This document shows, piece by piece, positions 25,419 to 53,960 of a stretch of 64,000 nt of DNA; within the stretch, counting starts at the first letter, position 1, and each line of letters begins with the position of its first letter. The notes beneath the pieces were generated by a model that saw only the letters and a list, made by a program, of their open reading frames with translations, was not told the DNA's origin and searched no databases. A program made the translations under genes and the position numbers. Origin of the DNA: Longispora fulva (GTDB lineage Bacteria > Actinomycetota > Actinomycetes > Mycobacteriales > Micromonosporaceae); NCBI RefSeq assembly GCF_015751905.1, contig NZ_JADOUF010000001.1, positions 7,874,001 to 7,938,000 of the forward strand, given 5' to 3'.

Positions 25419-25476
25419 GATCAACCCCATTATCTGACTACGGAGGGGCCTCCCCCGGCCGCGCCGGCCCTCGGCG
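25419..25476 (+). repeat. dispersed intergenic repeat, copy A
   Basis: Begins GATCAACCCCATTAT and ends GCGCCGGCCCTCGGC (25461-25475). It forms the left arm of a 162-bp inverted repeat with copy D. The GC-rich half is identical over 15 bases to copy C at 51636-51650. Confidence 0.7.
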
Positions 25477-25520
25477 GGGCGGCGCCCGGTGGGGTGATCC
25501 TCATGTGGGCGGTTGGTGGC

Positions 25521-25580
25521 GGGCGTCCGGCCGCTGGAAGCCGGGTCGGGCCCCACTCGTACACGATGATGGGTTTGATC
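25521..25580 (-). repeat. dispersed intergenic repeat, copy D
   Basis: Read on the minus strand it begins GATCAAACCCATCAT (25566-25580), identical over 15 bases to copy B, and continues CGTGTACGAGTGGGGCCC. Right arm of the inverted pair with copy A, between the DUF2567-like gene and hisD. Confidence 0.7.
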
Positions 25581-25647
25581 GGGGTGACCCTGGTCACGGG
25601 GAGATCGGATGCTGGGACCGAGCCGTCCGGTGGCTGGGAGCGCCGAC

Positions 25648-25659
25648 TAGGCTGAACAG
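25648..25659 (+). promoter_or_regulatory. leaderless promoter of hisD
   Basis: TAGGCT (25648-25653) followed by GAACAG and then GTG 25660, with no ribosome binding site. This is the only entry point into the his operon, so the operon has no room for a histidine attenuator at its head. Confidence 0.6.
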
Positions 25660-26949
25660 GTGCTGAACCGCATCGACCTCCGGGGTGACACCAGGGATCC
25701 GCGCGGGCTGCTGCCCCGCGCCCGGTTCGACGTGACCGCCGCGATCGAACAGATCCGGCCGGTCGTGGAGGCGGTCCGCGAGCATGGGGCCGCCGCCGTC
25801 AAGGAGGCCACGCATCGGTTCGACCACGTGGTGATCCCGAGCCTGCGGGTGCCGGTCGAGGAGATCGCGAAGGCGGCCGACGCCCTGGAGGGGCCGGTCC
25901 GCGCGGCCCTCGAGGAGGCGATCGCCCGGGTCCGGGTCGTGCACGCCGCCCAGCTGCGGCCCTCGCACACCACCACCCTCGCCCCCGGCGGCACGGTCAC
26001 CGAGAAGTGGCTGCCCGTCGGGCGGGTCGGGCTCTACGTGCCCGGCGGCCTGGCGATGTACCCGTCGAGTGTCGTCATGAACGTCGTCCCGGCCCAGGTG
26101 GCCGGCGTCGGCCAGATCGTGGTCGCCAGCCCGCCGCAGGCCGACAACGACGGCCTGCCGGACCGCAGGGTCCTCGCGGCGTGCGCGCTGCTCGGCGTGA
26201 CGGAGGTGTATGCGATGGGCGGCGCCCAGGCCATCGCCGCCCTTGGCTACGGCACCGAGGAGAACCGGCCCGTCGACATGATCACCGGGCCGGGCAACAT
26301 CTGGGTGACCGCCGCCAAGCGGCTGCTCCGTGGCACGGTCGGCATCGACTCCGAGGCCGGCCCGACGGAGATCGCGATCCTCGCCGACGACACGGCGGAC
26401 CCGGCGCACGTCGCCGCCGACCTGATCAGCCAGGCCGAGCACGACCCGCTGGCTGCGAGCGTGCTGGTCACGACGAGCGTGGCGCTGGCCGACGCCGTCG
26501 ACCGGGAGCTGGAGCGCCGGGTCGCGGTGACCAAGCACGCGCCCCGGGTGCGCGAGGCGCTGACCGGACCGCAGTCGGGGACCGTGCTCGTCAGCGACAT
26601 CGAGCAGGGGCTCGCGGTGGTGGACGACTACGCCGCCGAGCACCTGGAGATCCAGACCGCCGACGCGCCGGCCGTCGCCGACCGGGTCCGCAATGCCGGG
26701 GCCATCTTCGTCGGGGCCTGGTCCCCGGTGTCGCTCGGGGACTACTGCGCCGGGTCCAACCACGTCCTGCCCACCGGCGGCTGCGCGCGGCACTCCTCGG
26801 GGCTGAGCACGCACACGTTCCTCAAGGCCGTGCACGTCATCCAGTACGACGAGGCGGCGCTGCGGGAGGTCGCCGGGCACGTGGTGACGCTGGCCGAGGC
26901 CGAGGATCTGCCGGCGCACGGCGAGGCCGTCACGGCGAGGTTCCGGTGA
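25660..26949 (+). CDS. hisD: histidinol dehydrogenase
   Basis: Zinc- and NAD-dependent enzyme performing the last two oxidations of histidine synthesis. Family blocks seen: [39 protein letters not shown], the zinc ligands in LISQAEHDP and [17 protein letters not shown], and EHLEIQT carrying the general base residues. The 429-residue length is normal. GTG start lies six bases after a TAGGCT hexamer. Ends in GTGA with hisC. Confidence 0.96.
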
Positions 26950-28040
26950 GCGCGCCGGGATCCGAAGGCGCGGCGGAACAGTCGGTCGGCGGCGCGTTGC
27001 CGGTCCGGCCGGAGTTCCAGGGCATGTCGCCCTACGGCGCCCCGCAGCTCGACGTCGCCGTCCGGCTGAACACCAACGAGAACTCCTACCCGGTGCCGCC
27101 GGAGGTCGTCGACGCGATCTCGGCGGCCCTCGGCGCGGAGCTCTCCCAGCTCAACCGCTACCCGGACCGCGACGCCGTGGCCCTGCGCGCGGCCCTGGCC
27201 GACTACCTGGGCGTGACCACGGCCCAGATCTGGGCGGCCAACGGCTCCAACGAGGTGCAGCAGGAGATCCTGCAGGTGTTCGCCGGCCCCGGGCGTTCGG
27301 CGCTCGGGTTCACGCCCACCTACTCGATGCACCCGCTGCTCGCGCTGGGCACGGGCACGACGTGGATCGCCGGGGAGCGCACGGCGGACTTCGCGCTGGC
27401 CGACCCGGTGGCCCAGGTGCGCGCGGCGGACCCGGACGTGGTCTTCCTGTGCTCGCCGAACAACCCGACCGGCACGGCGCTGGACCTGGACACGATCCGT
27501 TCCGTGGCGCGGGTGGCCCGGGGCATGGTCGTCGTGGACGAGGCGTACGCGGAGTTCCGCCGGGCCGGCACGCCCAGCGCGTTGGACCTGCTGCCGGAGT
27601 TCCCCCGGTTGATCGTGACCCGGACGATGAGCAAGGCGTTCGGGTTCGCCGGCGGCCGGCTCGGGTACCTGGCGGCGAGCCCGGCCGTGGTGGACGCGGT
27701 GCAGCTGGTCCGGTTGCCGTACCACCTGTCGGCGCTGACCCAGGCGGCGGCGCGCGCGGCCCTGGCGCACCGCGCTGTCCTGCTCGGCACCGTGGCGGCC
27801 ATCAAGGCCCAGCGGGATCGGATCGTCGCGGAGCTGCGTGGCCTCGGCCTGACCGTCGCCGACTCCGACGCGAACTTCGTGCTGTTCGAGGTGGGCGGCG
27901 ACCAGGCGGTCTTCTGGGAGAAGCTGCTGGCGGCGGGCGTGCTGGTCCGCGATGTGGGCCTGTCGGGCTGGCTGCGCGTCACGGCCGGCACGGCGGAGGA
28001 GACGGACGCATTCCTGCAGGCTGTGAAGGAGTCACTGTGA
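26946..28040 (+). CDS. hisC: histidinol-phosphate aminotransferase
   Basis: PLP enzyme (fold type I, aspartate aminotransferase superfamily) converting imidazole acetol phosphate to histidinol phosphate. Seen: [11 protein letters not shown] at the substrate side, [23 protein letters not shown], and the PLP lysine in [15 protein letters not shown]. Start is the GTG overlapping the hisD stop; 364 residues, normal. The N-terminal 25 residues are disordered. Confidence 0.95.
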
Positions 28041-28636
28041 GGACCGGACGGGTCGAGCGGGTCACCAAGGAGACCAAGGTCCTCGTCGAGCTGGACCTCG
28101 ACGGCGGCCCGGTCACGGTGTCCACCGGGGTCGGCTTCTACGACCACATGCTGCACCAGCTCGGCCGGCACGGCGGCATCGGCATGAACATCGCCGTCGA
28201 GGGTGACCTGCACATCGACGCGCACCACACGCTGGAGGACACGGCGATCGGGCTGGGCGACGCGTTCGCCGAGGCGGCCGGGGACAAGCTCGGGGTGCGC
28301 CGGTTCGGGCACGCGATCGTGCCGCTCGACGAGGTGCTGGTCCAGGCGGTGGTCGACCTGTCCGGCCGGCCGTACTGCGTGCACGAGGAACCGGCGGGGC
28401 TCGCGCCGTTGATCGGGCCGGCGTACCCGACGAGCATGACCCGGCACATCTGGGAGTCGTTCGCCCACCATGCGAGGATCACCCTGCACGTGACCGTGCA
28501 GCGGGCCGCGCGGCCCGGAGCCCAGCCTGACGCGCACCACGTGGTGGAGGCCCAGTTCAAGGCCGTCGCCCGGGCGTTGCGGGACGCGATCCGGATCGAG
28601 GGCACGGACGTTCCGAGTACCAAGGGAATTCTTTGA
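28037..28636 (+). CDS. hisB: imidazoleglycerol-phosphate dehydratase
   Basis: Manganese-dependent dehydratase. The two His-rich metal motifs are present: [13 protein letters not shown] and [15 protein letters not shown], with the second half copy HHARITLHV and [20 protein letters not shown]. Single-domain form of 199 residues, without a phosphatase domain. GTG overlaps the hisC stop. Its own stop overlaps a TTG-started small ORF. Confidence 0.95.
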
Positions 28637-28785
28637 GCATCGTTCTTCTCGCCTTGGCGGGCATCCTGTTCGGTGGCGCGTGGTCGTTGCAGCAGCAGGA
28701 CCGGCCGAAGCCGGTGATCGCGATCGTCGGGCTCCTCGGCGTGCTGTCGCTCCTCGGCGGCATCCTGTGGATGTTGCCGAAGTGA
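28633..28785 (+). CDS. 50-residue two-helix membrane protein between hisB and hisH
   Basis: A small ORF with a TTG start overlapping the hisB stop (TTGA) and a TGA overlapping the hisH GTG (GTGA). The product has two hydrophobic helices, [17 protein letters not shown] and [19 protein letters not shown], joined by QQQDRPKP, and ends MLPK. AAGGGA lies before the start. Small membrane proteins at this place are found in other actinomycete his operons, which supports its being a real gene. Function unknown. Confidence 0.75.
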
Positions 28786-29384
28786 GCCGGGTCGTCGTCC
28801 TGGACTACGGTTCGGGCAATCTGCGCTCCGCCGAGCGGGCCATGGTCCGGGCCGGCGCGGACGTCACGGTGACCGACGACCTGGCGCTCGCGCTGGAGGC
28901 CGACGGACTGGTCGTGCCCGGCGTGGGCGCCTACGCCGCGTGCGTCGCGGGCCTGCTGGCCCTCGGCGGGGACGCCACGATCCGGGAGCGGTTGCGGCGG
29001 GAGCGGCCGGTCCTGGGCATCTGCGTGGGCGCGCAGATCATGTTCGGGTACGGCGACGAGCACGGCACGCACACCGAAGGCCTGGGTCTGCTGCCGGGCG
29101 GGGTGACCCGGCTCAAGGCGCCGGTGGTGCCGCACATGGGCTGGTCCCCGGTCGCCGTCGCGCCCGGGTCGGTGCTGTTCGACGGCGTCGAGGGCGAGCG
29201 GTTCTACTTCGTGCACTCCTACGCGGCCCGGCCGTGGGACGCCCCGGGGGTCACCACCGCCACCCACGGCGAGGAGTTCGTGGCCGCAGTGGAGGCCGGG
29301 GCGTTGTCGGTGACCCAGTTCCACCCGGAGAAGTCCGGCGACGCCGGGGCCCGGCTGCTGCGCAACTGGGTGGCGACGCTGTGA
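28782..29384 (+). CDS. hisH: imidazole glycerol phosphate synthase, glutamine amidotransferase subunit
   Basis: Class I glutaminase that feeds ammonia to HisF. Start of the fold [13 protein letters not shown], nucleophile Cys in [14 protein letters not shown] (near residue 81), and His/Glu of the triad in [11 protein letters not shown]. The family usually reads GICLGMQ; here it is GICVGAQ, with the Cys kept. 200 residues. Its partner hisF is not adjacent but 6 kb away on the other strand. Confidence 0.95.
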
Positions 29385-29396
29385 CCGGGGTGTGCC

Positions 29397-29711
29397 GTGG
29401 CTAAGGTGCGGGCGCAGAAGCGGGCCGCCCGGCTGGCCGAGGGCCAGGCGCGCCGGCTGAGGGCGGAGCGTCGGGAGAACCGCCGCCGCCGGGTCCGTGC
29501 GTTGTTCCGCCCGCGCCGGAGGGGTACCGGTCGGATCAGCCCCCGCCGCAGCCGCGCCGAGCGGGCCGGCATCGTGCTGGTGGCCGTCGCGCTGCTCTTC
29601 CTCACCTGGTTCTACCTGGACTCGTTCCCGGCGCAGCTCGCGATCACGGTGCTGCTGTTGGTGGCGAGTCCCGCCCTGATCGTGATGACCCTGGACCGGA
29701 GAACCCGATGA
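29397..29711 (+). CDS. Arg-rich small membrane protein of the his operon
   Basis: Not a named family. The first 55 residues are extremely basic, with [19 protein letters not shown] and PRRSRAER, followed by two hydrophobic helices ([18 protein letters not shown] and [17 protein letters not shown]). It could bind nucleic acid or anionic lipid at the membrane (inference). GTG start 12 bases after hisH; the stop overlaps the ATG of priA (ATGA), so it belongs to the operon. 104 residues. Confidence 0.75.
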
Positions 29712-34993: not shown

Positions 34994-34996
34994 CCG

Positions 34997-35082: not shown

Positions 35083-35580
35083 ATGTCTGTGGAGCGATTG
35101 ACGACCGGCGGCCCGTGGGAGAGCCTGTACGGCTACGCCCGGGCCGTGAAGGCCGGCCCCTGGATCGTCACCGCCGGGTGCACGGCCACGGTGCAGGGCG
35201 ACGTCCGGTGCGTGGGCGACCCGGCCGGCCAGACCAAGGAGGCGTTCCGGATCGCGCTCGACGCGATCGTGGACGCCGGCGCCTCGGTGGGCGACGTGGT
35301 GCGGACCCGGATGTACATCACCGACCCGATGCACGCCGACGCCGTGGGGCGGGCGCACGGGGAGCTGTTCGGGGTGGTGAAGCCGGCGGCCACCGTGGTG
35401 GTGACCCGGCTGCTGCACCCCGAGCAGTTGGTCCAGGTGGAGGTCGAGGCCTACCACCCGGAGGAGCCGACCGCGCCGGAGCGGGCCGGTTGGCGGGACT
35501 CCGCCGGCCTCAGCGCCGACGACCCGGGCAACGACGGGCTCAGCGCACCGGGAGATCTGCTGCTCGAAGGGCTTCTTTGA
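35083..35580 (+). CDS. ridA: RidA/YjgF family enamine deaminase-like protein
   Basis: Small cytoplasmic protein of the RidA family, which hydrolyses reactive imines. Seen: [49 protein letters not shown], and the C-terminal Glu/Tyr region [10 protein letters not shown]. The usual Arg of active RidA ([16 protein letters not shown]) appears present. The family core ends near residue 125; a further 40 residues ([11 protein letters not shown] onward) are extra. The last 41 bases overlap hisF on the other strand. ATG 35083 chosen; GTG 35062 is also in frame. 165 residues. Confidence 0.88.
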
Positions 35581-36322
35581 CCTGTGCGACGCTCAACTGG
35601 CCGAAGTGGAACACACTCGCCGCCAGCACCGCGTCCGCCCCGGCCGCCACCGCGGCCGGAAAGTCCCCGACCGCCCCCGCGCCCCCGCTCGCGATCAGTG
35701 GGATGTCGACCTCGGCCCGGACGGTGCGGATCAGCTCCAGGTCGAACCCCGCCTTCGTGCCGTCCGCGTCGATCGAGTTCAGCAGCAGCTCACCGGCACC
35801 GAGTTCGGCGGCGCGGGCGGCCCAGGCCACGGCGTCCATGCCGGTGCCGCGCCGGCCGCCGTGCGTGGTCACCTCGTAACGGGGGCTTCCGGACGGGGTG
35901 TCGCCGGAATCCGCCCCGGTCCGCCGCACGTCCAGTGACAGCGTGAGCACCTGGCTGCCGAACCGTTCGGCGATCTCCCGGATCAGCTCGGGCCGGCTGA
36001 TCGCCGCGGTGTTCACCCCGACCTTGTCGGCCCCGGCGCGCAGCAGCGCGTTGACGTCGTCCACGCTGCGCACCCCGCCGCCGACGGTCAGCGGAATGAA
36101 CACCGTCTCCGCGGTGCGCCGCACGACATCGAGCATCGTGCCGCGTCCGGCCACGGAGGCGGACACGTCGAGGAAGGTCAGCTCGTCGGCGCCCGCGGCG
36201 TCGTAGGTCGCGCCCAGTTCCACCGGGTCGCCGGCGTCGCGCAGGTCCGCGAACCGCACGCCCTTCACGACCCGCCCGTTGTCCACGTCTAGGCAGGGGA
36301 TGACCCGGATCGCCACGCTCAT
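35540..36322 (-). CDS. hisF: imidazole glycerol phosphate synthase, cyclase subunit
   Basis: TIM-barrel cyclase that joins with HisH. Catalytic Asp residues are in [16 protein letters not shown] and in LTLSLDVRR; phosphate loops LTVGGGVRS and [12 protein letters not shown] are present. ATG preceded by GGGGG. 260 residues, normal. It sits apart from the hisDCBHA operon and on the opposite strand, so must have its own promoter upstream of 36322; the gap there (36323-36448) also holds a dispersed repeat. Confidence 0.96.
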
Positions 36323-36372
36323 GCCCCCACCCTAAGCGCGTCCAGCCCCTGGGACGGACCGGGGCTTCGCCC

Positions 36373-36410
36373 AAAACCATCATTCGATTACGAATCGGGG
36401 CGTCCCCGGC
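36373..36410 (+). repeat. dispersed intergenic repeat, copy E
   Basis: Reads AAAACCATCATTCGATTACG then AATCGGGGCGTCCCCGG. Matches the first 35 or so bases of copies B and A with the outer GATC missing. It lies exactly where the backbone gene hisF gives way to accessory genes. Confidence 0.55.
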
Positions 36411-36448
36411 GCGCGGCGGCGGCCCGACGCCCTCGTCGACGCACGGCG

Positions 36449-37330
36449 TCAGCCCCGGGCCGCCCACGCCGTCCGCAGCGCCTCCAGGGTCGCCCGGATC
36501 GCCGGCCGGTCGCCGGCGGCTGTGCGCCACACCACGATCATCCGGCGGGTCGGCGGCGGCGTGACCTCCAGGATGTCCACCCCGGCCGGCACCCCGGTCC
36601 GGGCCAGCCGGGGCACCAGCGCCACTCCGAAACCGCGTTCGATCAGGGTGAACTGGGTCGCGAACTCATCGACCAGGAAGTCCGGCCGCACCCCGGGCAG
36701 CACCCGCAGCAGCCAGGTGTGGCAGATAGCGCCCGGGGTCGCCGAGATCCACCGCTCGCCGAACAGGTCGGCCAGCGCGACCGGCCCGGTGAACCGGCCG
36801 GCCGGGGCGAGCAGGTCCGCGACGTCGAACCCGAGTTCGAGGTGCGACATGCCGGGCGGAAGGTCCAGGGCCGCCTCGGGCCAGTCGTCGGCCACCGCGA
36901 GGTCGGCCAGCCCGCGCTGCACGAGGTCCAGGCCGATGTTGGGGTTGCCCTCACGGACGGCGACGGTGAGGTCCGGGTACCCGTCGGCCAGGGTCTGCAA
37001 CGCGTGCGGCAGCAGCCCCCGGCACGCCGTGGCGATGGAGGCGACCGTGACCCGGCCCTCGACCGTGGTCCGGTGCGCGGCGACGGCGGCCTCGGCCTCC
37101 TCGACGGCTGCGAGGACCCGGCCGGCGTGGTCGGCGAGCACCCGGCCCAGCTCGGTGAGCCGGAGCCGGCGGCCGTCCTTCTCGACGAGGGGCGCGCGGA
37201 TCTCCCGTTCGAGTTTGCCGAGGTGCTGGGACACCGCCGACGGGGTGCAGTGCAGGGCGTCGGCGGCGGCGAACACCGTCCCGTACAGCGAGACGGCGTG
37301 CAGCGCGCGCAGCCGGGCGAGCTCGATCAT
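36449..37330 (-). CDS. LysR family transcriptional regulator
   Basis: 293-residue LysR regulator. N-terminal winged helix LARLRALHAVSLYGTVFAAADALHCTPSAVSQHLGKLE (given in part: FAAADALHCTPSAVSQ is the recognition core) and a C-terminal effector domain. The effector is not evident. It diverges from an EamA exporter gene with 71 bases between, the classic arrangement in which LysR controls its neighbour. A palindrome lies between them. Confidence 0.92.
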   Translation of the reverse strand: MIELARLRALHAVSLYGTVFAAADALHCTPSAVSQHLGKLEREIRAPLVEKDGRRLRLTELGRVLADHAGRVLAAVEEAEAAVAAHRTTVEGRVTVASIATACRGLLPHALQTLADGYPDLTVAVREGNPNIGLDLVQRGLADLAVADDWPEAALDLPPGMSHLELGFDVADLLAPAGRFTGPVALADLFGERWISATPGAICHTWLLRVLPGVRPDFLVDEFATQFTLIERGFGVALVPRLARTGVPAGVDILEVTPPPTRRMIVVWRTAAGDRPAIRATLEALRTAWAARG

Positions 37331-40640: not shown

Positions 40641-42410
40641 ATGGACAATGGTGTTCTGGGCCGCGGAATGTGGGTGCTCGGCCAGGCCATCCGTGACGAA
40701 CCAGGTCGGTTCGCGATCGCGGTGGCCGGTAGTTGTGTGTTCGGACTGACGACGGTGGCCAGCGCGTACGTGGTGGGCCGGGTGGTCGGCGACATCGTCG
40801 TCCCCGCGTTCGACTCGGGGCACACGACCACTGGTTCCCTCGCCCTGGGAGCCGGGGCGATCCTCGCCGTCTCCCTGGTCAAGGTGCTCGGCATCCTGGG
40901 CCGGCGGCTGGGGGCCGGGGCGATGCAGTTTCACCTCCAGGCCCGGTACCGGCGCAAGGTCACCAGCCGCTATCTGCAGCTGCCGCTGGCCTGGCACTCC
41001 AAGCACCCCACCGGCACCCTGCTGTCCAACGCGAACGCAGACGTGGACGCCGCCTGGTCGCCGATCGCGCCGTTCCCGATGGCCGTGGGCACCCTGGTGA
41101 TGCTGGTCGGCGCCGTCGCGTCGCTGTTCGCCGTGGACTGGGTCCTCGCGCTGGTCAGCCTCGTGGTCTTCCCGGCGGTGTTCAGCCTCAACGTCATCTA
41201 CTCCCGGAGGATGTCCCCGAACATCACCCGTGCCCAGCAGCTGCGGTCCGAGGTCAGCGAGATCGCGCACGAGAGCTTCGACGGGGCCCTGGTCGTCAAG
41301 ACGATGGGCCGCGAGGAGGCCGAGACCCTGCGGTTCGAGCAGCGGGCCAACGAGCTGCGCGACGCCATGGTGAGGGTCGGCCGGATCCGGGGCGCGTTCG
41401 ACCCGGCGATGGACGCCCTGCCCCAGCTCGGCACTCTCGCGGTGCTGGTCGTGGGCGCGTGGCGGCTGTCGGCCGGCGCGGTCACGGTCGCCGACGTGGT
41501 GGCCGTGGCGTTCCTGTTCACGATCCTGGCGTTCCCGGTCCGGGCGATCGGCTGGGTGCTCGGCGAGCTGCCCCGCAGCGTCGCCGGCTGGGACAGGTTG
41601 CAGAACGTGATCACGGCGTCCGGGGACATGGAGTACGGCACGACCCCGCTGCGGGACGCCGGTCCCGCCGTCCTGGAGTTCGCCGGCGTGGACTTCTCCT
41701 ACGACGACACCCAGGTTCTCGCCGACGTGTCCTTCACGGTCCCGGCCGGCCGGACCGTGGCCCTGGTCGGCCCGACCGGGGCCGGCAAGTCGACCATCGC
41801 CTCCCTGGCCGCCCGGCTGGTCGACCCGAACGCCGGCCGGATCAGCATCGACGGCGTGGACGCCCGCCAGCTCAGCGGCGCGGCCCTCGCCGCGACCGTC
41901 GGCCTGGTCCCGCAGCTGCCGTTCGTGTTCGACGACTCGGTCCGGGGCAACATCACGCTCGGCCGCGAGGGGCTCGACGACGACGCCGTCTGGGCGGCGC
42001 TCGACCTGGCCCAGGCGTCCGGCTTCGTCCGCAAGCTCGACGAGGGCCTCGACACCCGGGTCGGGGAGCGCGGCACGAGCCTGTCCGGCGGCCAGCGCCA
42101 GCGGCTCACCCTGTCCCGGGCCCTGGCCGGCGGCCCCCGGCTGCTGGTCCTGGACGACGCGACCAGCGCCGTCGACCCCCGGGTCGAGGCCGCCGTGCTC
42201 GCCGGGGTGCGCGGTTCGTCGGCGAGCGTGCTGGTCGTGGCGTACCGCAGGGCCACCATCGCCCTCGCCGACCAGGTGGTCTACGTCGAGCAGGGCCGGG
42301 TGGTGGCGACCGGTACGCATGAGGAACTGCTCGCGGAGGTGCCCGGCTACATCGACCTGGTGACGGCCTACGAGCAGCAAGAAGCAGAGAAAGAGCTGGA
42401 GGACGCGTGA
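40641..42410 (+). CDS. ABC exporter half-transporter 1 (degenerate ATP site elements)
   Basis: Fused six-helix membrane domain and nucleotide-binding domain, 589 residues. Walker A GPTGAGKST near residue 377 and a normal signature LSGGQRQRL. The residue after Walker B is Asp rather than the catalytic Glu (LLVLDDATSAVDP, near 500), and the switch His is replaced by Tyr (VVAYRRATIALAD, near 534). These changes are those of the inactive-site partner in heterodimeric exporters. ATG preceded by GGAAG. Overlaps the second half-transporter (GTGA). Substrate unknown. Confidence 0.93.
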   Translation: MDNGVLGRGMWVLGQAIRDEPGRFAIAVAGSCVFGLTTVASAYVVGRVVGDIVVPAFDSGHTTTGSLALGAGAILAVSLVKVLGILGRRLGAGAMQFHLQARYRRKVTSRYLQLPLAWHSKHPTGTLLSNANADVDAAWSPIAPFPMAVGTLVMLVGAVASLFAVDWVLALVSLVVFPAVFSLNVIYSRRMSPNITRAQQLRSEVSEIAHESFDGALVVKTMGREEAETLRFEQRANELRDAMVRVGRIRGAFDPAMDALPQLGTLAVLVVGAWRLSAGAVTVADVVAVAFLFTILAFPVRAIGWVLGELPRSVAGWDRLQNVITASGDMEYGTTPLRDAGPAVLEFAGVDFSYDDTQVLADVSFTVPAGRTVALVGPTGAGKSTIASLAARLVDPNAGRISIDGVDARQLSGAALAATVGLVPQLPFVFDDSVRGNITLGREGLDDDAVWAALDLAQASGFVRKLDEGLDTRVGERGTSLSGGQRQRLTLSRALAGGPRLLVLDDATSAVDPRVEAAVLAGVRGSSASVLVVAYRRATIALADQVVYVEQGRVVATGTHEELLAEVPGYIDLVTAYEQQEAEKELEDA

Positions 42411-44179
42411 CGGCCGCCGTTATCGAGGAGTCGACCTACGGCACCATGCGCCGGGGCCTGTCCCTGTCGCCAGAGCTGCGCACCGGCCTGGTCGGCACCC
42501 TGTGCCTCGCCGTCGTCGCGACCGCCGGCAAGATCGCGGTCCCGGTGGCCGTGCAGCAGGGCATCGACAAGGGGCTGCGCACCGCGTCCGGCGTGCCGGA
42601 CATGCACGCCATCGCCACCATCGTCACCCTGACGATCGCGATGCTGACCGTGACCGTGACGTGCGGTTACTTCATGAACGTCCGGCTGTTCACGGTCAGC
42701 GAGCGGGCCCTGGCGGGGCTGCGGGTGCGCACCTTCCGGCACATCCACGACCTGTCGACCCTGCACCAGCAGACCGAGCGGCGCGGCTCGCTCGTGTCCC
42801 GGGTGACCAGCGACATCGACACGATCAGCCAGTTCCTCCAGTTCGGCGGGATGCTGCTGATCATCAGCTTCGGCCAGCTGCTCGTCGCCACCGTGATCAT
42901 GTCGGTGTACTCCTGGCAGCTCACCCTCGTCGTCTGGGCGGCGTTCGGCCCGCTGGCCTTCGTGATCCGGCACTTCCAGAAGCGGCTGGCGACGGCGTAC
43001 GGCGTGGCCCGGGTCAAGGTCGGCACCCTGCTCGGCGTGGTGGCCGAGAGCGTGGTCGGCGCGAGCGTCATCCGCGCGTACGGGGTGCACGAGCGCACCG
43101 CCGGCCGGCTCGACACGGCGGTGGAGGAGTACCGGGTCGCCCAGTACCGGGGACTGCGCACGTCGGTCGGGATCTTCTCCCTGGGAGAGCTGGCCGCCGG
43201 CCTGGTCAACGCCGGCGTGGTCCTGCTCGGCGTGTGGCTCGGCCTCGGCGGCGACCTCAGCGTCGGCGAGCTGACAGCGTTCATGTTCCTCGTGGCGCTG
43301 TTCGTGCAGCCGGTGCAGATGGCCACCGAGATCCTCAACGATGCCCAGAACGCGATCGCCGGCTGGCGCCGGGTCCTCGACGTCCTCGACGTCGCGCCCG
43401 ACGTGGCCGACCCGGTGCCGGGCCGGGCGCTGCCGGCGGGCCCGCTGGGCGTCCAGTTCGACGGGGTCCGGTTCAACTACCCGGGCGGTCCCGACGTGCT
43501 GTCCGATGTGGACGTCGTGATCCCGGCCCAGATGAAGATCGCCGTGGTCGGCGAGACCGGCTCCGGCAAGACCACCTTCGCGAAGCTGCTCACCCGGCTG
43601 ATGGACCCGACGGCCGGCACCGTCCAGCTCGGCGGCGAGCCGCTCGACGAGGTCAGCTTCGTGTCCCTGCGCAGCCGGGTGGTCATGGTGCCGCAGGACG
43701 GCTTCCTGTTCGACGCCACGGTGGCCGAGAACGTCCGGTTCGCCCGCCCCGACCTGACCGACGCCGAGCTCCTGGCGGCGTTCGAGGGCCTGGGGCTCGC
43801 CGACTGGGTCGCCGGCCTGCCCCAGGGCCTGGCCACCCCGGTCGGGGAGCGCGGCGAGGCGCTCAGCGTCGGCGAACGCCAGCTCGTGGCCCTGGCCCGC
43901 GCCTACGTCGCCGACCCCGACCTGCTGGTCCTCGACGAGGCGACCAGCGCCGTGGACCCGGCCACCGAGGTCCGCCTCGCCCGCACCCTCGACGCGGTCA
44001 CCCGGGGCCGGACCACGGTCGCGATCGCGCACCGGCTGTCCACGGCCCAGGCCGCCGACGAGGTGATCGTCTTCGACGCCGGCCGGATCGTCCAACGCGG
44101 CCCGCACGCCACGTTGGTCGCGGAAACGGATTCCGTCTACGCCAAGCTCTATGCCTCCTGGCTGGAACAGACCCGCTAG
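42407..44179 (+). CDS. ABC exporter half-transporter 2
   Basis: Partner of the preceding gene, 590 residues, same domain plan. Walker A GETGSGKTT, Walker B with catalytic Glu (LLVLDEATSAVDP) and switch His (VAIAHRLSTAQ) are normal, but the signature is LSVGERQL in place of LSGGQ. Its own ATP-binding half should therefore pair with the good signature of partner 1 to make the active site, and its weak signature should complete the degenerate one. GTG overlaps the stop of gene 1. A structured non-coding stretch follows. Confidence 0.93.
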   Translation: MTAAVIEESTYGTMRRGLSLSPELRTGLVGTLCLAVVATAGKIAVPVAVQQGIDKGLRTASGVPDMHAIATIVTLTIAMLTVTVTCGYFMNVRLFTVSERALAGLRVRTFRHIHDLSTLHQQTERRGSLVSRVTSDIDTISQFLQFGGMLLIISFGQLLVATVIMSVYSWQLTLVVWAAFGPLAFVIRHFQKRLATAYGVARVKVGTLLGVVAESVVGASVIRAYGVHERTAGRLDTAVEEYRVAQYRGLRTSVGIFSLGELAAGLVNAGVVLLGVWLGLGGDLSVGELTAFMFLVALFVQPVQMATEILNDAQNAIAGWRRVLDVLDVAPDVADPVPGRALPAGPLGVQFDGVRFNYPGGPDVLSDVDVVIPAQMKIAVVGETGSGKTTFAKLLTRLMDPTAGTVQLGGEPLDEVSFVSLRSRVVMVPQDGFLFDATVAENVRFARPDLTDAELLAAFEGLGLADWVAGLPQGLATPVGERGEALSVGERQLVALARAYVADPDLLVLDEATSAVDPATEVRLARTLDAVTRGRTTVAIAHRLSTAQAADEVIVFDAGRIVQRGPHATLVAETDSVYAKLYASWLEQTR

Positions 44180-44187: not shown

Positions 44188-44313
44188 GGCCCGCTGAGGG
44201 CGACGATGCGTGCGTTGTCAGGAACCCGGCATACAACACCGGTATGCCGGAACCTTCGCGGTCGTGCCGGAGGCGCGCCAGACAGCAGAGCGCCTCCCCG
44301 CCCTCAGCGGGCC
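44188..44313. repeat. 126-bp element with perfect 15-bp inverted ends and an inner hairpin
   Basis: GGCCCGCTGAGGGCG (44188-44202) is the exact reverse complement of 44299-44313. Inside, CCGGCATAC (44226-44234) pairs with GTATGCCGG (44242-44250). It may be a terminator of the ABC genes with complex folding, or a small mobile element. The gap from 44180 to 44495 holds no gene. Confidence 0.6.
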
Positions 44314-44336: not shown

Positions 44337-44378
44337 GATCAACCACCACTTTCGGTTACGCCGCGTCCCCGACCCGGC
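44337..44378 (+). repeat. dispersed intergenic repeat, copy F
   Basis: GATCAACCACCACTTTCGG followed by TTACGCCGCGTCCCCGACCC, a diverged copy of the family, in the same orientation as copy E. It marks the return from accessory genes to the hisI-trpE backbone. Confidence 0.5.
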
Positions 44379-44429
44379 AGCCGACGCTCGTCCGCCTCCC
44401 TCGGCACCGGTGTCAGCCGGGCGCACTCG

Positions 44430-44482: not shown

Positions 44483-44495
44483 ATAGGGGAGTGAC

Positions 44496-47872: not shown

Positions 47873-47902
47873 ATGGCGCCCGGAGAGGGGAGTCCGCGGT
47901 GA
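47873..47902 (+). CDS. 9-codon ORF coupled to trpC
   Basis: ATG 47873 opens MAPGEGSPR, whose TGA (47900-47902) overlaps the trpC GTG (47899-47901). It lacks tryptophan codons, so it is not a classical attenuator peptide. It could bring ribosomes to trpC on a leaderless message, or be chance. Confidence 0.3.
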
Positions 47903-48708: not shown

Positions 48709-48733
48709 TCTCGCCAGACGCGCGGGTGCGGGG

Positions 48734-48745
48734 TAAGGTGCGCGG
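48734..48745 (+). promoter_or_regulatory. leaderless promoter of lgt
   Basis: TAAGGT (48734-48739), six bases, then GTG 48746 with no ribosome binding site. It separates lgt transcription from trpC. Confidence 0.55.
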
Positions 48746-49801
48746 GTGAATCTGGCATCGATCCCCAGCCCTTCGGTAGGCGTCTGGCACGTGCTCGGCA
48801 TCCCGATCCGGGGCTACGCGCTCTGCATCGTGCTCGGCATCGTCGTGGCCTGCTGGATCACCGAGACCCGGATGCGGCGCCGCGGCGCGCCGAAGTACGC
48901 GGTGCTCGACGTCGCGGTGTGGGCGGTGCCGTTCGGCATCGTCGGCGCCCGGCTCTACCACGTGATCACCTCGCCGCAGGCGTACTTCGGCGAGGGCGGC
49001 CACGCGATCAAGGCCTTCTACATCTGGGAGGGCGGCCTCGGGATCTGGGGCGGCGTCGCCGGTGGGGCCCTGGGCGCGTGGATCGCGTGCCGGCAGCTGA
49101 AACTGCCGCTGCGGATGGTCGCCGACGCCCTCGCGCCCGGGCTGCCCGTCGCGCAGGCGGTCGGCCGGTTCGGCAACTGGTTCAACAACGAGCTGTACGG
49201 CGGCCCGACGACGCTGCCGTGGGGCCTCCAGGTGCACGACTGGGATTCCACGAACGGCCGCGCGCAGACCGGCCCGGACGGCCAGCCGCTGCTCAAGGAC
49301 GGCCTGTACCACCCCACGTTCCTCTACGAGGCCGTGTGGAACATCGGCGTCGCCGGCCTGGTGCTCTGGGCCGAGCGGCGGTTCAAGCTCGGCTGGGGCC
49401 GCGCCTTCGCCCTGTACGTGATGGGCTACACCGCCGGCCGGGTCTGGATCGAGGCGATGCGCACCGACCCCGCCAACGAGTTCCTCGGCGTGCGGATCAA
49501 CGTGTGGACGTCGATCGTGGTGTTCCTCGGCGCGCTGGCCTACTTCGTAGCGAAGCGGGGCAAGCCGCAGGAGAAGCTGGTGGCGATCGAGGGCGTGCTC
49601 ACGCCGGTACCCCTCGACTGGGAGCCGGAACCGGAGACGGCGTCGGAGGTCGAGGCGGACGTCGAGGTCATCGCGGAGCCGGCCGACGAAGCTGGACCGG
49701 ACGCGGAAGCCGGGCCGGCCGAAGAGCCGGACACGGAGGCCGAGGCGGACGAGAGCACCGAAAAGCCAGCACCAAACGGGGACAAAACTCACCAGAAGTA
49801 G
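48746..49801 (+). CDS. lgt: prolipoprotein diacylglyceryl transferase
   Basis: Membrane enzyme attaching diacylglycerol to the lipobox Cys, before LspA cleavage. Seven hydrophobic helices and the signature GLPVAQAVGRFGNWFNNELYG (read here in parts: AVGRFGNWFNNELYG), HPTFLYEAVWN, and MGYTAGRVWIEAMRTD. The last 75 residues form an acidic Glu/Asp/Ala tail, much longer than in E. coli Lgt but common in actinomycetes. 351 residues. Stands alone behind a leaderless promoter. Confidence 0.95.
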   Translation: MNLASIPSPSVGVWHVLGIPIRGYALCIVLGIVVACWITETRMRRRGAPKYAVLDVAVWAVPFGIVGARLYHVITSPQAYFGEGGHAIKAFYIWEGGLGIWGGVAGGALGAWIACRQLKLPLRMVADALAPGLPVAQAVGRFGNWFNNELYGGPTTLPWGLQVHDWDSTNGRAQTGPDGQPLLKDGLYHPTFLYEAVWNIGVAGLVLWAERRFKLGWGRAFALYVMGYTAGRVWIEAMRTDPANEFLGVRINVWTSIVVFLGALAYFVAKRGKPQEKLVAIEGVLTPVPLDWEPEPETASEVEADVEVIAEPADEAGPDAEAGPAEEPDTEAEADESTEKPAPNGDKTHQK

Positions 49802-49807
49802 CGCGAG

Positions 49808-49813
49808 TATCCT
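49808..49813 (+). promoter_or_regulatory. candidate -10 of the epimerase-glycosyltransferase pair
   Basis: TATCCT 35 bases before ATG 49848, in the 46-base gap after lgt. A GGGAGA lies nine bases before the ATG as ribosome binding site. Confidence 0.35.
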
Positions 49814-49847
49814 GGGTCGAGCGGACAAGAATGGGAGACCCTCAAGC

Positions 49848-50843
49848 ATGGCGAAGATCGACGCGGTAGTCACCGGGGCCGGCGGGTTCATCGGCGGACA
49901 CCTCACCAAGGCACTCCTGGCGGAGGGCAAGACCGTCCGGGCCGTGGACATCAAACCGCTCAACGAGTGGTACCAGCGGCTCGACACCGCCGAGGAGGTC
50001 GTCGCCGACGTCTCCCTGCTGGGCGAGGCCCGCTCGGTGCTCGACGGCGGGGCCGGCGAGGTCTTCAACCTGGCCGCCGACATGGGCGGCATGGGCTTCA
50101 TCGAGAACAACAAGGCCGCCTGCATGCTGTCGGTGCTGACCAGCACCCACGTGCTGATGGCCGCCAAGGAGGCCGGCGTCGACCGGTTCTTCTACTCCTC
50201 CTCGGCCTGCGTCTACGCCGCCGACAAGCAGACCGACGCCGACATCGTCGCGCTGAAGGAGGAGGACGCCTACCCGGCGATGCCCGAGGACGGGTACGGC
50301 TGGGAGAAGCTGTTCTCCGAGCGCCTCGCCCGGCACTTCCGCGAGGACTACGGCATCGCCACCCGGATCGCCCGCTTCCACAACATCTACGGCCCCAACG
50401 GCACCTGGGACGGCGGCCGCGAGAAGGCCCCCGCCGCCGCGTGCCGCAAGGTCGCGCACGCCGTGCTGACCGGCAACCACGAGATCGAGATCTGGGGCGA
50501 CGGCCTGCAGACCCGCTCCTTCACGTACGTGGACGACTGCGTCGACGGCATCCTCCGGGTCACCCGGGGCGACTTCGACGAGCCGATCAACGTGGGCTCC
50601 TCCGAGGTCGTCACGATCAACCAGCTGTACGCGCTGGTGGCCGACATCGCCGGCGTCGAGATCAGCTACAAGCACGTCCCCGGCGCGCTCGGCGTCCGTG
50701 GCCGCAACAGCGACAACACGCTGATCCTCAAGGAGTTCGGCTGGGAGCCCTCGACGCGGCTGCGCGACGGCATCGCCCGGACGTACGCGTGGATCCTCGA
50801 GCAGGCCAAGGCCAAGGCCGCCGGTCTGGCGTACACCAACTGA
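49848..50843 (+). CDS. GDP-mannose 3,5-epimerase
   Basis: Extended short-chain dehydrogenase/reductase with NAD loop TGAGGFIGGH at the N-terminus. The motifs are those of GDP-mannose 3,5-epimerase: NLAADMGGMGFI, the catalytic Cys in SSSACVYAADK, the Tyr-Lys pair in DGYGWEKLFSERL, RFHNIYGPNGTWDGGREKAP with the second active-site Lys, GDGLQTRSFTYVDDCVDG and GVRGRNSDN with the active-site Arg. The product would be GDP-L-galactose or GDP-L-gulose. 331 residues. Stop and the next ATG overlap (TGATG), tying it to the glycosyltransferase. Confidence 0.88.
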   Translation: MAKIDAVVTGAGGFIGGHLTKALLAEGKTVRAVDIKPLNEWYQRLDTAEEVVADVSLLGEARSVLDGGAGEVFNLAADMGGMGFIENNKAACMLSVLTSTHVLMAAKEAGVDRFFYSSSACVYAADKQTDADIVALKEEDAYPAMPEDGYGWEKLFSERLARHFREDYGIATRIARFHNIYGPNGTWDGGREKAPAAACRKVAHAVLTGNHEIEIWGDGLQTRSFTYVDDCVDGILRVTRGDFDEPINVGSSEVVTINQLYALVADIAGVEISYKHVPGALGVRGRNSDNTLILKEFGWEPSTRLRDGIARTYAWILEQAKAKAAGLAYTN

Positions 50844-51598
50844 TGGGCGACATCCAGCGGGTCGACGTCCTCGGCGTGGGCGTGTCCGCCGTCAACATGG
50901 ACATGGCCGTCGAGGAGGTCACCCGCTGGGTGGACCACCGCGAGCGGCACTACGTGTGCGTCACCGGCGTGCACGGCGTGATGGAGTCCCAGCGCGACCC
51001 CGACCTGCTGCGGATCCACAACGAGTCGGGCCTGACCACCCCGGACGGCATGCCCATGGTGTGGGCCGGCCACCAGGCGGGCGCCGACTGGATGACCCGG
51101 GTCTATGGCCCCGACCTCATGCTCCGGGTCCTGGAGTTGGCCGCCGAGCGCGGCTGGGGCTCCTACCTCTACGGCGGCAACGACGGCGTGCCCGAGCTGC
51201 TCGCCGCCAAGCTCCAGGAGCGGTTTCCCGGGCTGAAGATCGTCGGGATGCACTCCCCGCCGTTCCGGCCGCTGACGACCGAGGAGGACGAGGCGATCGT
51301 CCGCGAGATCAACTCGTCCGGGGCCGAGCTGGTGTGGGTCGGGCTGTCCACGCCCAAGCAGGAGCGCTGGATGTCCGCGCACGTCGGGCGGCTCGACGCG
51401 CCGGCGCTGTTCGGGGTGGGGGCGGCGTTCGACTTCCACGCCGGGCTCGTGCCGCAGGCGCCGGCCTGGATCCAGAAGCGCGGCCTGGAGTGGGCGTTCC
51501 GGCTCACCAAGGAGCCCAAGCGCCTCTGGCGGCGGTACTTCCGCAACAACCCGGCCTACCTGTGGCAGACCCGCCGCCGGAAGCCGTTCCTGCGCTAA
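50843..51598 (+). CDS. WecG/TagA/CpsF family glycosyltransferase
   Basis: GT26 family protein, 251 residues. Seen: VCVTGVHGVMESQRD, the catalytic Asp region TTPDGMPMVWAG, YLYGGNDGVPE, VWVGLSTPKQERWM and FGVGAAFDFHAGLVPQAPAW. Family members move an N-acetylhexosamine or other sugar to a polyprenyl diphosphate sugar carrier at the membrane; the basic C-terminus KRLWRRYFRNNPAYLWQTRRRK suits membrane binding. Coupled to the epimerase, it may add the L-sugar that enzyme makes (inference). Its TAA overlaps the end of the convergent Uma2 gene. Confidence 0.9.
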   Translation: MGDIQRVDVLGVGVSAVNMDMAVEEVTRWVDHRERHYVCVTGVHGVMESQRDPDLLRIHNESGLTTPDGMPMVWAGHQAGADWMTRVYGPDLMLRVLELAAERGWGSYLYGGNDGVPELLAAKLQERFPGLKIVGMHSPPFRPLTTEEDEAIVREINSSGAELVWVGLSTPKQERWMSAHVGRLDAPALFGVGAAFDFHAGLVPQAPAWIQKRGLEWAFRLTKEPKRLWRRYFRNNPAYLWQTRRRKPFLR

Positions 51599-52278
51599 GA
51601 CCTTTTGACGGTTACGAGTGGCCCCGCCCCGGCCAGCGCCGGCCCTCGGCAAGGAGTCGCCAGCGTGATCTTCATGCGGCCGGGGAGCCCGAACTGCCCG
51701 GGCGCATGAAGATCAGCCGGATCGGGTCGGTCGGACAGCTCGGCCGGGTCGAGGGCGAACGGGAACGGGTAGCGGGTCGACCAGCGCTCGCCGGGCGGGA
51801 CCGTCGCCGTGATCGTGTAGCGGCCCTCGTTGATGAGCTCGTAGACGTGCAGGTTGCCCTCGCGGTCGATCCGCCAGTACGCCGGGATGCCGGCCTCGGC
51901 GTAGAACGCCGGCTTGCTGGTCCGGTCGTTCATCTGGGTCGACCGGGACGCGATCTCCACGACCAGCGCGGCACCGGCGACCGGGGTCCACTCCTCACCC
52001 CGGACAGCGTCCGGTTTGAGAACCACGATGTCGGGGGTCAGGTTGGCGCTCGGCAGCCGGAGCCCCAGGTCGGTCCGGATCCGCCAGCCTTCCGGGGCCG
52101 CGTTCCAGAGCCGGGCATACAGGTTGCCCTGGATGCCCGGGTGCGATTCGTCGCCCGGCGCTGAGATGACCAGGCTTCCGTCGAAGATCTCGTAGCGATG
52201 ACCGTCGTCGGGGAGCGCCGCGATCGTTTCCTCCGTCCATGCGTCCGGCATCTTCCAGTCGTAGCCGGGCTGAGTCAC
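51595..52278 (-). CDS. Uma2 family (DUF820) protein with a C-terminal tail encoded by repeat DNA
   Basis: 227-residue protein with the restriction-endonuclease-like Uma2 fold: GHRYEIFDGSLVISAP, LTPDIVVLKPD, ALVVEIAS and KPAFYAEAGIPAYWRID carry the PD-(D/E)xK residues. GTG 52278 has AAGGAGGTG in front; the frame is open upstream but codes for nothing recognisable. Family members normally end about at ALDPAELSDR; the last 40 or so residues here come from a hairpin (51666-51715) and dispersed repeat C, so the original stop seems lost. Function of the family is uncertain. Confidence 0.82.
   Translation of the reverse strand: MTQPGYDWKMPDAWTEETIAALPDDGHRYEIFDGSLVISAPGDESHPGIQGNLYARLWNAAPEGWRIRTDLGLRLPSANLTPDIVVLKPDAVRGEEWTPVAGAALVVEIASRSTQMNDRTSKPAFYAEAGIPAYWRIDREGNLHVYELINEGRYTITATVPPGERWSTRYPFPFALDPAELSDRPDPADLHAPGQFGLPGRMKITLATPCRGPALAGAGPLVTVKRS
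51607..51650 (+). repeat. dispersed intergenic repeat, copy C
   Basis: GACGGTTACGAGTGGCCCC followed by GCCCCGGCCAGCGCCGGCCC, ending GCGCCGGCCCTCGGC (51636-51650), identical over 15 bases to copy A. The outer GATCAAAC end is not recognisable. Opposite orientation to copy B at 53.9 kb. Confidence 0.65.
51666..51715. terminator. long hairpin inside the Uma2 3' end
   Basis: TGATCTTCATGCG (51666-51678) pairs perfectly with CGCATGAAGATCA (51703-51715), and after one mismatch CCGGG pairs with CCCGG. Placed between convergent genes, it looks like a bidirectional terminator now read as the Uma2 C-terminus. Confidence 0.6.
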
Positions 52279-52336
52279 GGAGCACCTCCTTTTCGGCGGA
52301 TCCCCAGTTGCCAAGTGGGTCTTCGGGTGGCGCTGG

Positions 52337-52660
52337 TCAGGCGTCCTCGTCGGGGTCGTCGTCGGCCGGGTCCTCGTCGTCCTCGGTCGGTTCGGGTGCC
52401 GGGTCGATCCACACCAGGCGGAACTGGCCGATCCGCGACCACATCCGGCGGGCGCTCTCCGCCGACTGCATGATGTCGGCCAGCGCGCCTTCCTCGAACC
52501 TCCGGACCACGGCATGGTCGTCGAACTGCATCCCGTACGCGTAGACCCGGCCGTCCTCGCGGTCGCCCCGCACCTGGCAGAGGGCGAACCGGCGCGGCGC
52601 GCCCTCGTGCGCCATCGTCTCCAGCAGCGAGTCGAACTCCTCATCGGTCCACAACTCCAC
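52337..52660 (-). CDS. small acidic hypothetical protein
   Basis: 107 residues, no family recognised. It has an ordered first 85 residues (ELWTDEEFDSLLETM, RRFALCQVRGDRE, QFDDHAVVRRFEEG) and a very acidic tail EPTEDDEDPADDDPDEDA. GTG start preceded by GGGAGG. It lies 58 bases upstream of the Uma2 gene on the same strand and is probably cotranscribed with it. Confidence 0.65.
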   Translation of the reverse strand: MELWTDEEFDSLLETMAHEGAPRRFALCQVRGDREDGRVYAYGMQFDDHAVVRRFEEGALADIMQSAESARRMWSRIGQFRLVWIDPAPEPTEDDEDPADDDPDEDA

Positions 52661-52820
52661 AGCAACCTCCCGAATACGTGGTGTGACTGGGCTGTCTCCA
52701 ATAGAGCACAGAGCATGGTGAGATCACTAGATTTCTAGCGGCGTGGGAATGTGTCAGGTTTCGGACATGATGTGCGGGGTTGCTAGGCGGCGCGTCGCGA
52801 CGGTGGCACTATCCGCAGAT

Positions 52821-53669
52821 ATGAGCATGCGTCCAGACCCCGCAGCGATGCGCTGGCTGATCGGCGTCGAACTGGCCCGGCACCGGAGGGACGCTGGGTT
52901 GTCCCTGGCGCAGGTGTCGGCGGCTACCGGCATCGGCCGACCGAAACTGGGCCACATGGAAACCGGCTTGTACCGCCAGCATGCCGACGACATCTCCACT
53001 GTGCTTGGGGCCTACGGGGTGCCGTCGGAGGACATCGCGCGGGTTGCGGCGCTGGCCGGCCATGCCAACGCCCGAACGTGGTGGGCACCCTGGGAGAGCG
53101 CGATCCCCGAGTGGATGCGAACCATGGTCGGGCTGGAAGGGATGGCGGAGCGGGAGTTCCTATTCGAGCCGTTGGTGATTCCGGGGCTACTGCAAACGGA
53201 GGACTATGCGTTGGCGTTGACCCAGGCGGCTGTCATCGTTCGGCCGGACCGCCGGGAGCGGGTCGTGTCCTTCCGCCGGGAGCGGGCGGCCAGGCTAACC
53301 GCGCATGAGCCGCTCGATCTGCATGTTGTGATCGGAGAGGCGGCACTCGGGCTCAGCGTGGGCGATGAGCCAGCTCGGCGTCACCAACTTGAGCATCTGA
53401 TCCGGATGGCTCAGCAGCCCAACGTGGCGATCCAGGTGATCCGCCCGGAAGGCGGCTCGCACGGCGCTTTGGCGGTGGGCCAGTTCATGGCGCTCAAGTT
53501 GCCGGAGACTCGGCCGGTTGTCTACGTGGAGTTGCTCGATGGCGCGTGTTACATCCACGAGCCTGACTTGGTGACCACGTATACGATGGTGGCTGACACG
53601 CTACGCCAAGTGGCCCTGTCGCCTGCCGAATCACTCGCGTTGATCAAGGGGCTGGTCAGCGCGGCCTAG
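52821..53669 (+). CDS. XRE family regulator with DUF5753-type C-terminal domain
   Basis: 282 residues. N-terminal helix-turn-helix: LARHRRDAGLSLAQVSAATG and IGRPKLGHMETG, followed by the ligand-like domain typical of Streptomyces XRE-DUF5753 regulators: EREFLFEPLVIPGLLQTEDYA, VSFRRERAARL and FMALKLPETRPVVYVE. ATG 52821 chosen; the upstream in-frame ATG 52743 adds residues unlike the family. Paired with a DUF397 gene 13 bases downstream, the usual WhiJ/BldB-like arrangement in actinomycete development and antibiotic control (family knowledge). Confidence 0.9.
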   Translation: MSMRPDPAAMRWLIGVELARHRRDAGLSLAQVSAATGIGRPKLGHMETGLYRQHADDISTVLGAYGVPSEDIARVAALAGHANARTWWAPWESAIPEWMRTMVGLEGMAEREFLFEPLVIPGLLQTEDYALALTQAAVIVRPDRRERVVSFRRERAARLTAHEPLDLHVVIGEAALGLSVGDEPARRHQLEHLIRMAQQPNVAIQVIRPEGGSHGALAVGQFMALKLPETRPVVYVELLDGACYIHEPDLVTTYTMVADTLRQVALSPAESLALIKGLVSAA

Positions 53670-53682
53670 CCCGGAGCTATCG

Positions 53683-53886
53683 ATGTCAACGATTGACCTG
53701 TCCCACGCACGTTGGTTCAAGAGCAGCCGGAGCGCCAACAACGGGAGTTGTGTCGAGGCGACTGTTCTCGCGGAGCATGTCGCTGTGCGGGACAGTAAGG
53801 ACGTGGGCGGGCCGGTGCTCGTCTTCGGGGCCGGGGACTGGGGGGCGTTCCTCGCCGGGGCCAAGGGTGGTCGGCTCCGCGGGTGA
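53683..53886 (+). CDS. DUF397 protein
   Basis: 67 residues. Family motifs are clear: ARWFKSSRSANNGSCVEATVL, VAVRDSKD and GAGDWGAFLAG. DUF397 proteins include BldB-like partners of the XRE-DUF5753 regulators. ATG preceded by GGAG at seven bases. Immediately downstream of its XRE partner. Confidence 0.9.
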   Translation: MSTIDLSHARWFKSSRSANNGSCVEATVLAEHVAVRDSKDVGGPVLVFGAGDWGAFLAGAKGGRLRG

Positions 53887-53906
53887 CCCCGGAGAGCCCC
53901 AGGTCA

Positions 53907-53960
53907 GAGGGCCGGCGCTGGCGGGGCACAGCCCACCGTAATCATATGATGGGTTTGATC
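53907..53960 (-). repeat. dispersed intergenic repeat, copy B
   Basis: On the minus strand begins GATCAAACCCATCAT (53946-53960), continues ATGATTACGGTGGG and ends GCGCCGGCCCTC (53907-53918). Most complete single copy. It begins just after the DUF397 gene. Confidence 0.7.

Follow-up and report, generated by a model that had tools for sequence, protein, structure and literature searches.

The stretch analysed here, 64,000 nucleotides of the Longispora fulva chromosome (contig NZ_JADOUF010000001.1, positions 7,874,001 to 7,938,000 of the forward strand; hereafter the window), contains six copies of a short repeat and, just upstream of the fourth copy, a larger hairpin element (Table 1). The repeat family is real; it is abundant in this Longispora genome, and the searched relatives have very few copies. 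In the first-pass annotation the six sites had been described as one family of intergenic repeats sharing an ordered set of separate blocks. All six are present within a few bases of where they had been placed and align on a common seven-base core. The order of the sequence is indeed common to them, but the supposed blocks are parts of one continuous unit of approximately 51 bp. The intergenic location applies to five of the six copies, the exception being copy 5, which lies antisense to, and inside the 3' end of, a minus-strand open reading frame (ORF) of the Uma2 type (51595-52716).

Table 1 Copies of the 51-bp repeat and the companion hairpin element in the window
Feature	Position	Strand	Sequence characters	Context	R1 score (bits)
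Copy 1	25419..25468	+	leader GATCAACCCCATTATCT, core GACTACG, tail to CGGC	directly after a stop codon ending at 25417	43
Copy 2	25531..25580	-	core GTGTACG	opposite to copy 1, tail-to-tail, in the common tandem gap 25418-25659	38.9
Copy 3	36369..36418	+	core GATTACG	flanked by minus-strand genes 35540-36322 and 36449-37330	35.7
Copy 4	44337..44386	+	CCGCG-type tail	3' of both the ABC-transporter gene (42407-44179) and the hairpin element	37.7
Copy 5	51599..51642	+		directly after the stop of a WecG-type ORF (plus strand, end 51598)	28.5
Copy 6	53911..53960	-	sole copy of the six with zero mismatches to the 24-letter pattern		46
Companion hairpin element	44188..44313	+	outer stem GGCCCGCTGAGGGCG / CGCCCTCAGCGGGCC, inner core GCATACAACACCGGTATGC at 44229-44247

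Sequence anatomy and abundance of the repeat

A 24-letter pattern (GATCAAACCCATCATNNNNTTACG) matched the 8.68-Mb chromosome at 24 sites with up to three mismatches, against none for the reversed pattern. An alignment of these 24 sites and three further copies from the window gave the sequence-only model R1, which rests on 27 copies, the six window copies included. With a limit of 20 bits, R1 recovers the six sites and no others in the window.

The anatomy of the unit was read from 87 copies of at least 20 bits, of which 33 come from 600 kb of sequence and 54 from 20 genomic segments chosen for containing copies. Copies of 10-20 bits were excluded from this set, though some of them appear genuine. 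The unit is composed of an A/T-rich leader, the core GGTTACG and a G+C-rich tail of fixed length that ends in CGG, and it spans approximately positions -17 to +33 relative to the core. In the leader, positions -12 and -11 are preferentially A and position -5 is preferentially T; the tail carries CGACCCGG-like letters with recurrent types such as GAGGGGCCCGACCCGG, GCGACACCTGCCCCGG and CCGCGTTCCTGACCCGG, among others. No clear sequence signal was found past +35. The complete core GGTTACG occurs in 47 of the 87 copies, and its last three positions are nearly invariant (A and G in 86 copies each, C in all 87); since every core had been positioned by its best match to GGTTACG near the expected place, part of this sharpness is built in. 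Among the first 27 copies, which were not placed by best match, the four letters of TACG were found in 22 (T), 25 (A), 26 (C) and 26 (G) copies. Some third positions of the tail vary in the column counts of the 87 copies, which had prompted the idea of a coding fragment. This candidate was rejected, as at least three copies have a TGA in that frame and the distance from the upstream stop is not always a multiple of three.

With R1, at least 148 copies were found in the genome at E<0.01, 148 of the 150 candidates scored passing this limit. The excess over controls was confirmed in the 600 kb with a matrix whose 54 training copies lay outside the regions tested and had themselves been found with R1, which includes the window copies. 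At 14 bits or more the matrix yielded 39 matches, five of them in called genes, against one in the reversed sequence and one in a Markov resample. The corresponding numbers were 43 against three and one at 12 bits or more, and 46 (nine in genes) against six and four at 10 bits or more. Elsewhere matches were scarce: the 200-kb stretch at 2.2-2.4 Mb of the same chromosome gave none with a limit of 14 bits and three with a limit of 10 bits, and 786 kb of Longispora albida gave two and nine, respectively.

Among the 147 copies listed, which are the 150 scored candidates less the last three, 75 are on the plus and 72 on the minus strand; the GC skew is too flat for placing the origin. Two of these copies are located in 0-1 Mb and one in 1.757-3.75 Mb, the rest being spread over 1.0-1.76 and 3.75-8.68 Mb. 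The first-pass annotation had noted that all copies lay outside the core of conserved genes, and genome-wide this is not true: it is the sampled copy-poor part that looks accessory. In the stretch at 2.2-2.4 Mb, which has 31 convergent gene pairs, no copy reaches 12 bits. Because RHS, HINT, FtsK/SpoIIIE and lectin domains are found among its five longest called proteins, the sample suggests accessory DNA.

Position at gene ends and occurrence in relatives

Genes and gaps were called with our own codon-usage caller, not taken from an annotation. The first-pass proposal of a dispersed extragenic family agrees well with these calls, as 80 of the 87 copies are located outside called genes. Of the seven copies found inside genes, six are at the 3' end of the gene and one near its 5' end. 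Tests of density and context were confined to the 33 copies from the 600 kb, a sample taken regardless of copies. Of these, 32 could be classified by the orientation of the neighbouring genes: 21 are in convergent gaps, six in tandem gaps in sense orientation, five in tandem gaps in antisense orientation and none in divergent gaps, where approximately five convergent and ten divergent copies were expected. Of the intergenic bases in gaps of at least 40 bp in the same 600 kb, convergent gaps account for 9.8 kb, tandem gaps for 34.3 kb and divergent gaps for 20.6 kb, and both the convergent excess (p 1e-10) and the lack of divergent copies (p 5e-6) are pronounced. The wider set behaves alike. 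Besides the seven copies in genes and two without a called neighbour on one side, it comprises 78 classified copies, of which 47 are convergent, 14 tandem sense, 15 tandem antisense and two divergent. The even orientation in tandem gaps is as expected for a dispersed repeat. The idea of a strictly sense-oriented terminator was withdrawn in view of the same counts.

The placement within convergent gaps is tight. In 36 of the 47 convergent copies the core lies at most 25 bp from the stop of the leader-side gene, and many copies, judged by eye, begin at the stop codon itself. In 11 of the 47 the end of the opposite gene is found 26-36 bp beyond the core, i.e. at most about 10 bp from the end of the tail. 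Where two of the 147 listed copies, or of two more found later, are less than 400 bp apart they are inverted in five of five cases, copies 1 and 2 of the window included; the pairs are few, and convergent gaps favour inversion.

In 60 relatives, R1 at E<=0.001 found six matches in five genomes, L. albida accounting for two; the own genome, filtered in the same way and more strictly than for the genome count, gave 86. One match, in genome G010, directly follows a stop codon and may be a true relative, while two of the matches appear by eye to be coding. The enriched intergenic words vary among the four relatives sampled, and because they differ between genomes each sampled relative seems to have its own short repeats. 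Other intergenic repeats noticed in family genomes were GGTGATCAAGAG... in G004 and CAACTCTTCAAGAGTTG and CACGCTTTGCTGCAAAACGTGA in G010. A small set of AGATCAA...TTGTACTGG sequences in L. albida resembles a counterpart of the L. fulva family. A loose scan of 786 kb listed 26 rows, of which about six are convincing members by eye. They share with the L. fulva unit the AGATCAA leader, a similar spacing and, in the examples read, the location at gene 3' ends, but the core is different.

Within the genus, the comparison was made with one genome, that of L. albida. Between the sampled parts of both Longispora chromosomes there are 253 reciprocal best pairs and 186 conserved adjacent pairs, 21 of which are convergent. 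In the four convergent pairs with a copy, the gap measures 51 bp here versus 0 in L. albida (pair hi1 99), 69 versus -40 (pair hi1 170), 173 versus 82 and 263 versus 52. In pair hi1 99 the end of the right-hand gene is identical, and the 51 bases between the two stops are nearly all element, so that the junction in L. albida comes close to what would be an empty site. One tandem pair with a copy has a gap of 244 bp here versus 69 in L. albida. A reverse case is provided by pair hi1 25, in which a gap of 8 bp here corresponds to 43 bp in L. albida, filled by a AGATCAAGATC...TTGTACTGG sequence of its own. In two more convergent pairs, counted as lacking a copy, L. albida has 47-49 bp where the genes here overlap by 4, and pair hi1 112, counted among the 17 pairs without a copy here, holds a weak copy of 15.6 bits. 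Taken together, the comparison leans towards copies having been gained or lost as whole units.

Resemblance to known repeats and a dispersed-element reading

Repetitive extragenic palindromes (REPs) are palindromes of 20-40 bp with GTAG or CGTC tags that are located mostly downstream of genes, many of them being tied to Y1 transposases (Di Nocera et al. 2013, PMC3733652). The Longispora family shares with REPs the short length, a number above 100 copies, the extragenic location downstream of genes or between convergent or unidirectional genes and, as far as the few pairs go, the inverted arrangement of close pairs. Some REP families are confined to one species (PMC3733652), and the Longispora family is nearly confined to one genome among those searched. 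In contrast to the REPs described there, the Longispora unit is approximately 51 bp instead of 20-40 bp long, is a palindrome in a minority of copies and carries the internal motif GGTTACG; neither a GTAG nor a CGTC end tag is present in the column counts of the 87 copies. Six actinobacterial terms were all missing from the main text of PMC3733652. In the Longispora genome no Y1 (RAYT-type) transposase was detected by PF01797, whereas five of 14 control genomes were positive.

Miniature inverted-repeat transposable elements (MITEs), by their usual definition, are likewise small, non-coding and dispersed, and the Longispora unit was apparently gained whole at one junction. Unlike in MITEs, no target duplication could be shown and no parent transposon was found, Y1_Tnp being the only kind searched for. 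Intervals between copies that contain genes do exist, and one of them may be an autonomous parent flanked by two copies. Terminal inverted repeats were not seen either: the consensus ends GATCA... and ...CGG are not complementary, judged by eye and not by an alignment of the ends. The likeness to REP or MITE repeats drawn in the first-pass annotation is hence appropriate for the habit of the family, that is its number, its place at gene 3' ends, its restriction to one genome among those searched and, in the few cases seen, its inverted close pairs (five of five). In the strict sense it lacks support, as most copies are non-palindromic and neither terminal inverted repeats nor a Y1 transposase were found. 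No report of this repeat family came up in the literature, judged from search results alone. The family looks like an apparently new relative of the small scattered repeats of bacteria, with REPs as the nearest kind.

The sites are probably a short, non-autonomous dispersed repeat of approximately 51 bp, lineage-specific and REP-like in habit; this is the account we favour, with modest confidence. The unit would have multiplied in this Longispora lineage, in which the family would have been active once L. albida had branched off. The units may have been copied and inserted by a trans-acting enzyme, none having been found in the search for Y1_Tnp. Copies would be gained or lost whole at gene 3' ends, above all at convergent junctions, where they might be least harmful; divergent gaps are avoided. 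Because all 87 compared copies have diverged, the family may be quiet now. A secondary 3' boundary effect between convergent genes is possible, its basis being association.

Several observations weigh against a dispersed element. Gaps between conserved neighbours shift as much without any copy, as in pair hi1 114 with 62 bp here versus -22 in L. albida, and just four copy-bearing convergent gaps have neighbours that are adjacent in L. albida, so that the evidence for turnover is thin. A target duplication is not visible at the compared junctions. The copies are diverged, the best pair reaching 88% and the median nearest neighbour 75% (87 copies, 51 positions), and recent movement is thus not shown. 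No mobilising gene could be linked to the family: Y1_Tnp is absent, and no other kind was searched for. Lastly, the rigid length of the unit and the few hairpins in the same gaps would also fit a selected site.

Alternative readings and a possible boundary role

The last point leads to a less probable account, namely a selected 3'-end signal. According to it, the unit would be a putative protein-bound, double-stranded site that blocks RNA polymerase (or a Rho-type stop), is free of hairpins and serves both convergent genes. The conserved core, the fixed tail length and the near absence of copies from divergent gaps (none of 32 in the 600 kb, two of 78 in the wider set) are in line with such a signal, and so is the scarcity of hairpins around the copies. 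Stems of at least 9 are rarer in convergent gaps of 50-200 bp that hold a copy of at least 20 bits (seven of 39) than in those lacking any R1 match (28 of 45; p 5e-5). The contrast holds for other limits, with 11 of 39 against 30 of 45 for stems of at least 8 and six of 39 against 25 of 45 for stems of at least 10. Seven convergent gaps with only a weak R1 match were set apart from this comparison; three of them have a stem. When stems outside the element were counted in convergent gaps of 80-200 bp, the numbers were four of 27 with a copy against 17 of 27 without (p 6e-4). The data fit both a unit that acts in place of a terminator and a unit that inserted at junctions where none existed before. 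The hairpin contrast is confounded as evidence for a signal, since it would also arise if copies inserted into tight, hairpin-free junctions, and since a copy leaves less room. Moreover, the even orientation in tandem gaps demands a stop that works in both directions. For a general terminator it would also be odd that copies of 12 bits or more are lacking at 2.2-2.4 Mb despite the 31 convergent pairs, and that hardly any copies occur in relatives.

The companion hairpin element upstream of copy 4 raises a further, unlikely alternative, in which the 51-bp unit would be a decayed part or one end of a larger MITE-like hairpin element upstream and would have moved together with it. The companion, approximately 126 bp in length, belongs to a separate repeat family that often precedes a 51-bp copy. 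With up to three mismatches allowed, its core GCATACAACACCGGTATGC has 32 matches in the genome and one in the control; within two mismatches it was found in 110 of 300 family genomes, the own included, and the control had no match among the rows. The exact core was found in 90 stretches of the species collection, and the rows listed belong chiefly to Phytohabitans, Actinocatenispora, Glycomyces, Stackebrandtia, Longispora and Symbioplanes, with a single Pseudomonas and a single unrelated metagenome-assembled genome. Paired changes in the stem are frequent (GCATAC/GTATGC, GAATAC/GTATTC, GGATAC/GTATCC), while common variants with a broken outer pair are ACATAC/GTATGC and GAATAC/GTATGC. In several other genera the hairpin element appears, by eye and without gene calls, to fill the space between convergent stop codons. 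Rfam gave no credible match in 12 loci with the companion hairpin. That the 51-bp unit is part of such an element is consistent with the TACG copy that follows six of nine hairpin cores in 800 kb of bulk regions, with the AGATCAA letters common to both elements at their joint and with the hairpin copies, which were also gained or lost between the two Longispora. However, most copies of the 51-bp unit have no adjoining hairpin element, and many begin at a stop codon, as judged by eye. The two also differ in range, the hairpin core being spread over more than a third of the family genomes and the 51-bp unit being found in few relatives, and weakly.

The companion hairpin, widespread in Micromonosporaceae and also present in Glycomyces and Stackebrandtia, may merit a study of its own. 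Another hairpin, TGATCTTCATGC...GCATGAAGATCA at 51666-51719 of the window, is likewise located near several copies, also at other loci, and perhaps represents a third repeat family.

A structured RNA or intrinsic terminator is a very improbable explanation. An intrinsic terminator consists of a G+C-rich hairpin followed by a T-run. The Longispora unit is similar in its location right after stop codons and between convergent genes, but it forms a hairpin in approximately one fifth of the copies, is followed by no T-run (the column counts of the 87 copies have no T excess after the tail) and is conserved in sequence rather than in structure. A minority of tails does fold: stems of at least 8 are present in 19 of 87 tails against six of 87 shuffles (p 0.008) and seven of 90 coding pieces, and the folding z lies below -1.5 in 23% of the tails against 4% of the coding pieces. 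On average, however, z is -0.3 in the tail and -0.15 over the whole element; coding sequence gives 0.01, and the first 42 bases of convergent gaps lacking a copy give -1.57. RNAalifold predicted zero consensus pairs for the first 27 copies. Rfam 15 had no match above the gathering score in the window and none at the element in 12 loci with E up to 1. A family-wide RNA hairpin was accordingly rejected, since single copies fold well and a minority of the set does, but not the set as a whole. Because there is no consensus pair, the mean z is weak and only a minority of the tails fold, it is sequence, more than structure, that unites the family. A merely accidental resemblance among G+C-rich sequences, which has nothing in its favour beyond the G+C-rich tail, can practically be dismissed in view of the controls with reversed pattern, reversed sequence and Markov resample.

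A rather doubtful extension of the dispersed-repeat reading would join mobility and function. As a mobile, mostly hairpin-free boundary, the 51-bp site would spread between convergent genes, and a putative lineage-specific protein would halt RNA polymerase there in both directions. If this were true, hairpin terminators would be replaced by a protein-bound one at approximately one fifth of the convergent junctions (21 copies on 106 pairs in the 600 kb). That copies avoid divergent gaps and have few hairpins beside them makes such a boundary role directly testable. For the family as a whole, a REP-like habit without a Y1 transposase and mostly without a palindrome, in an actinobacterial lineage, asks what else can spread such repeats.

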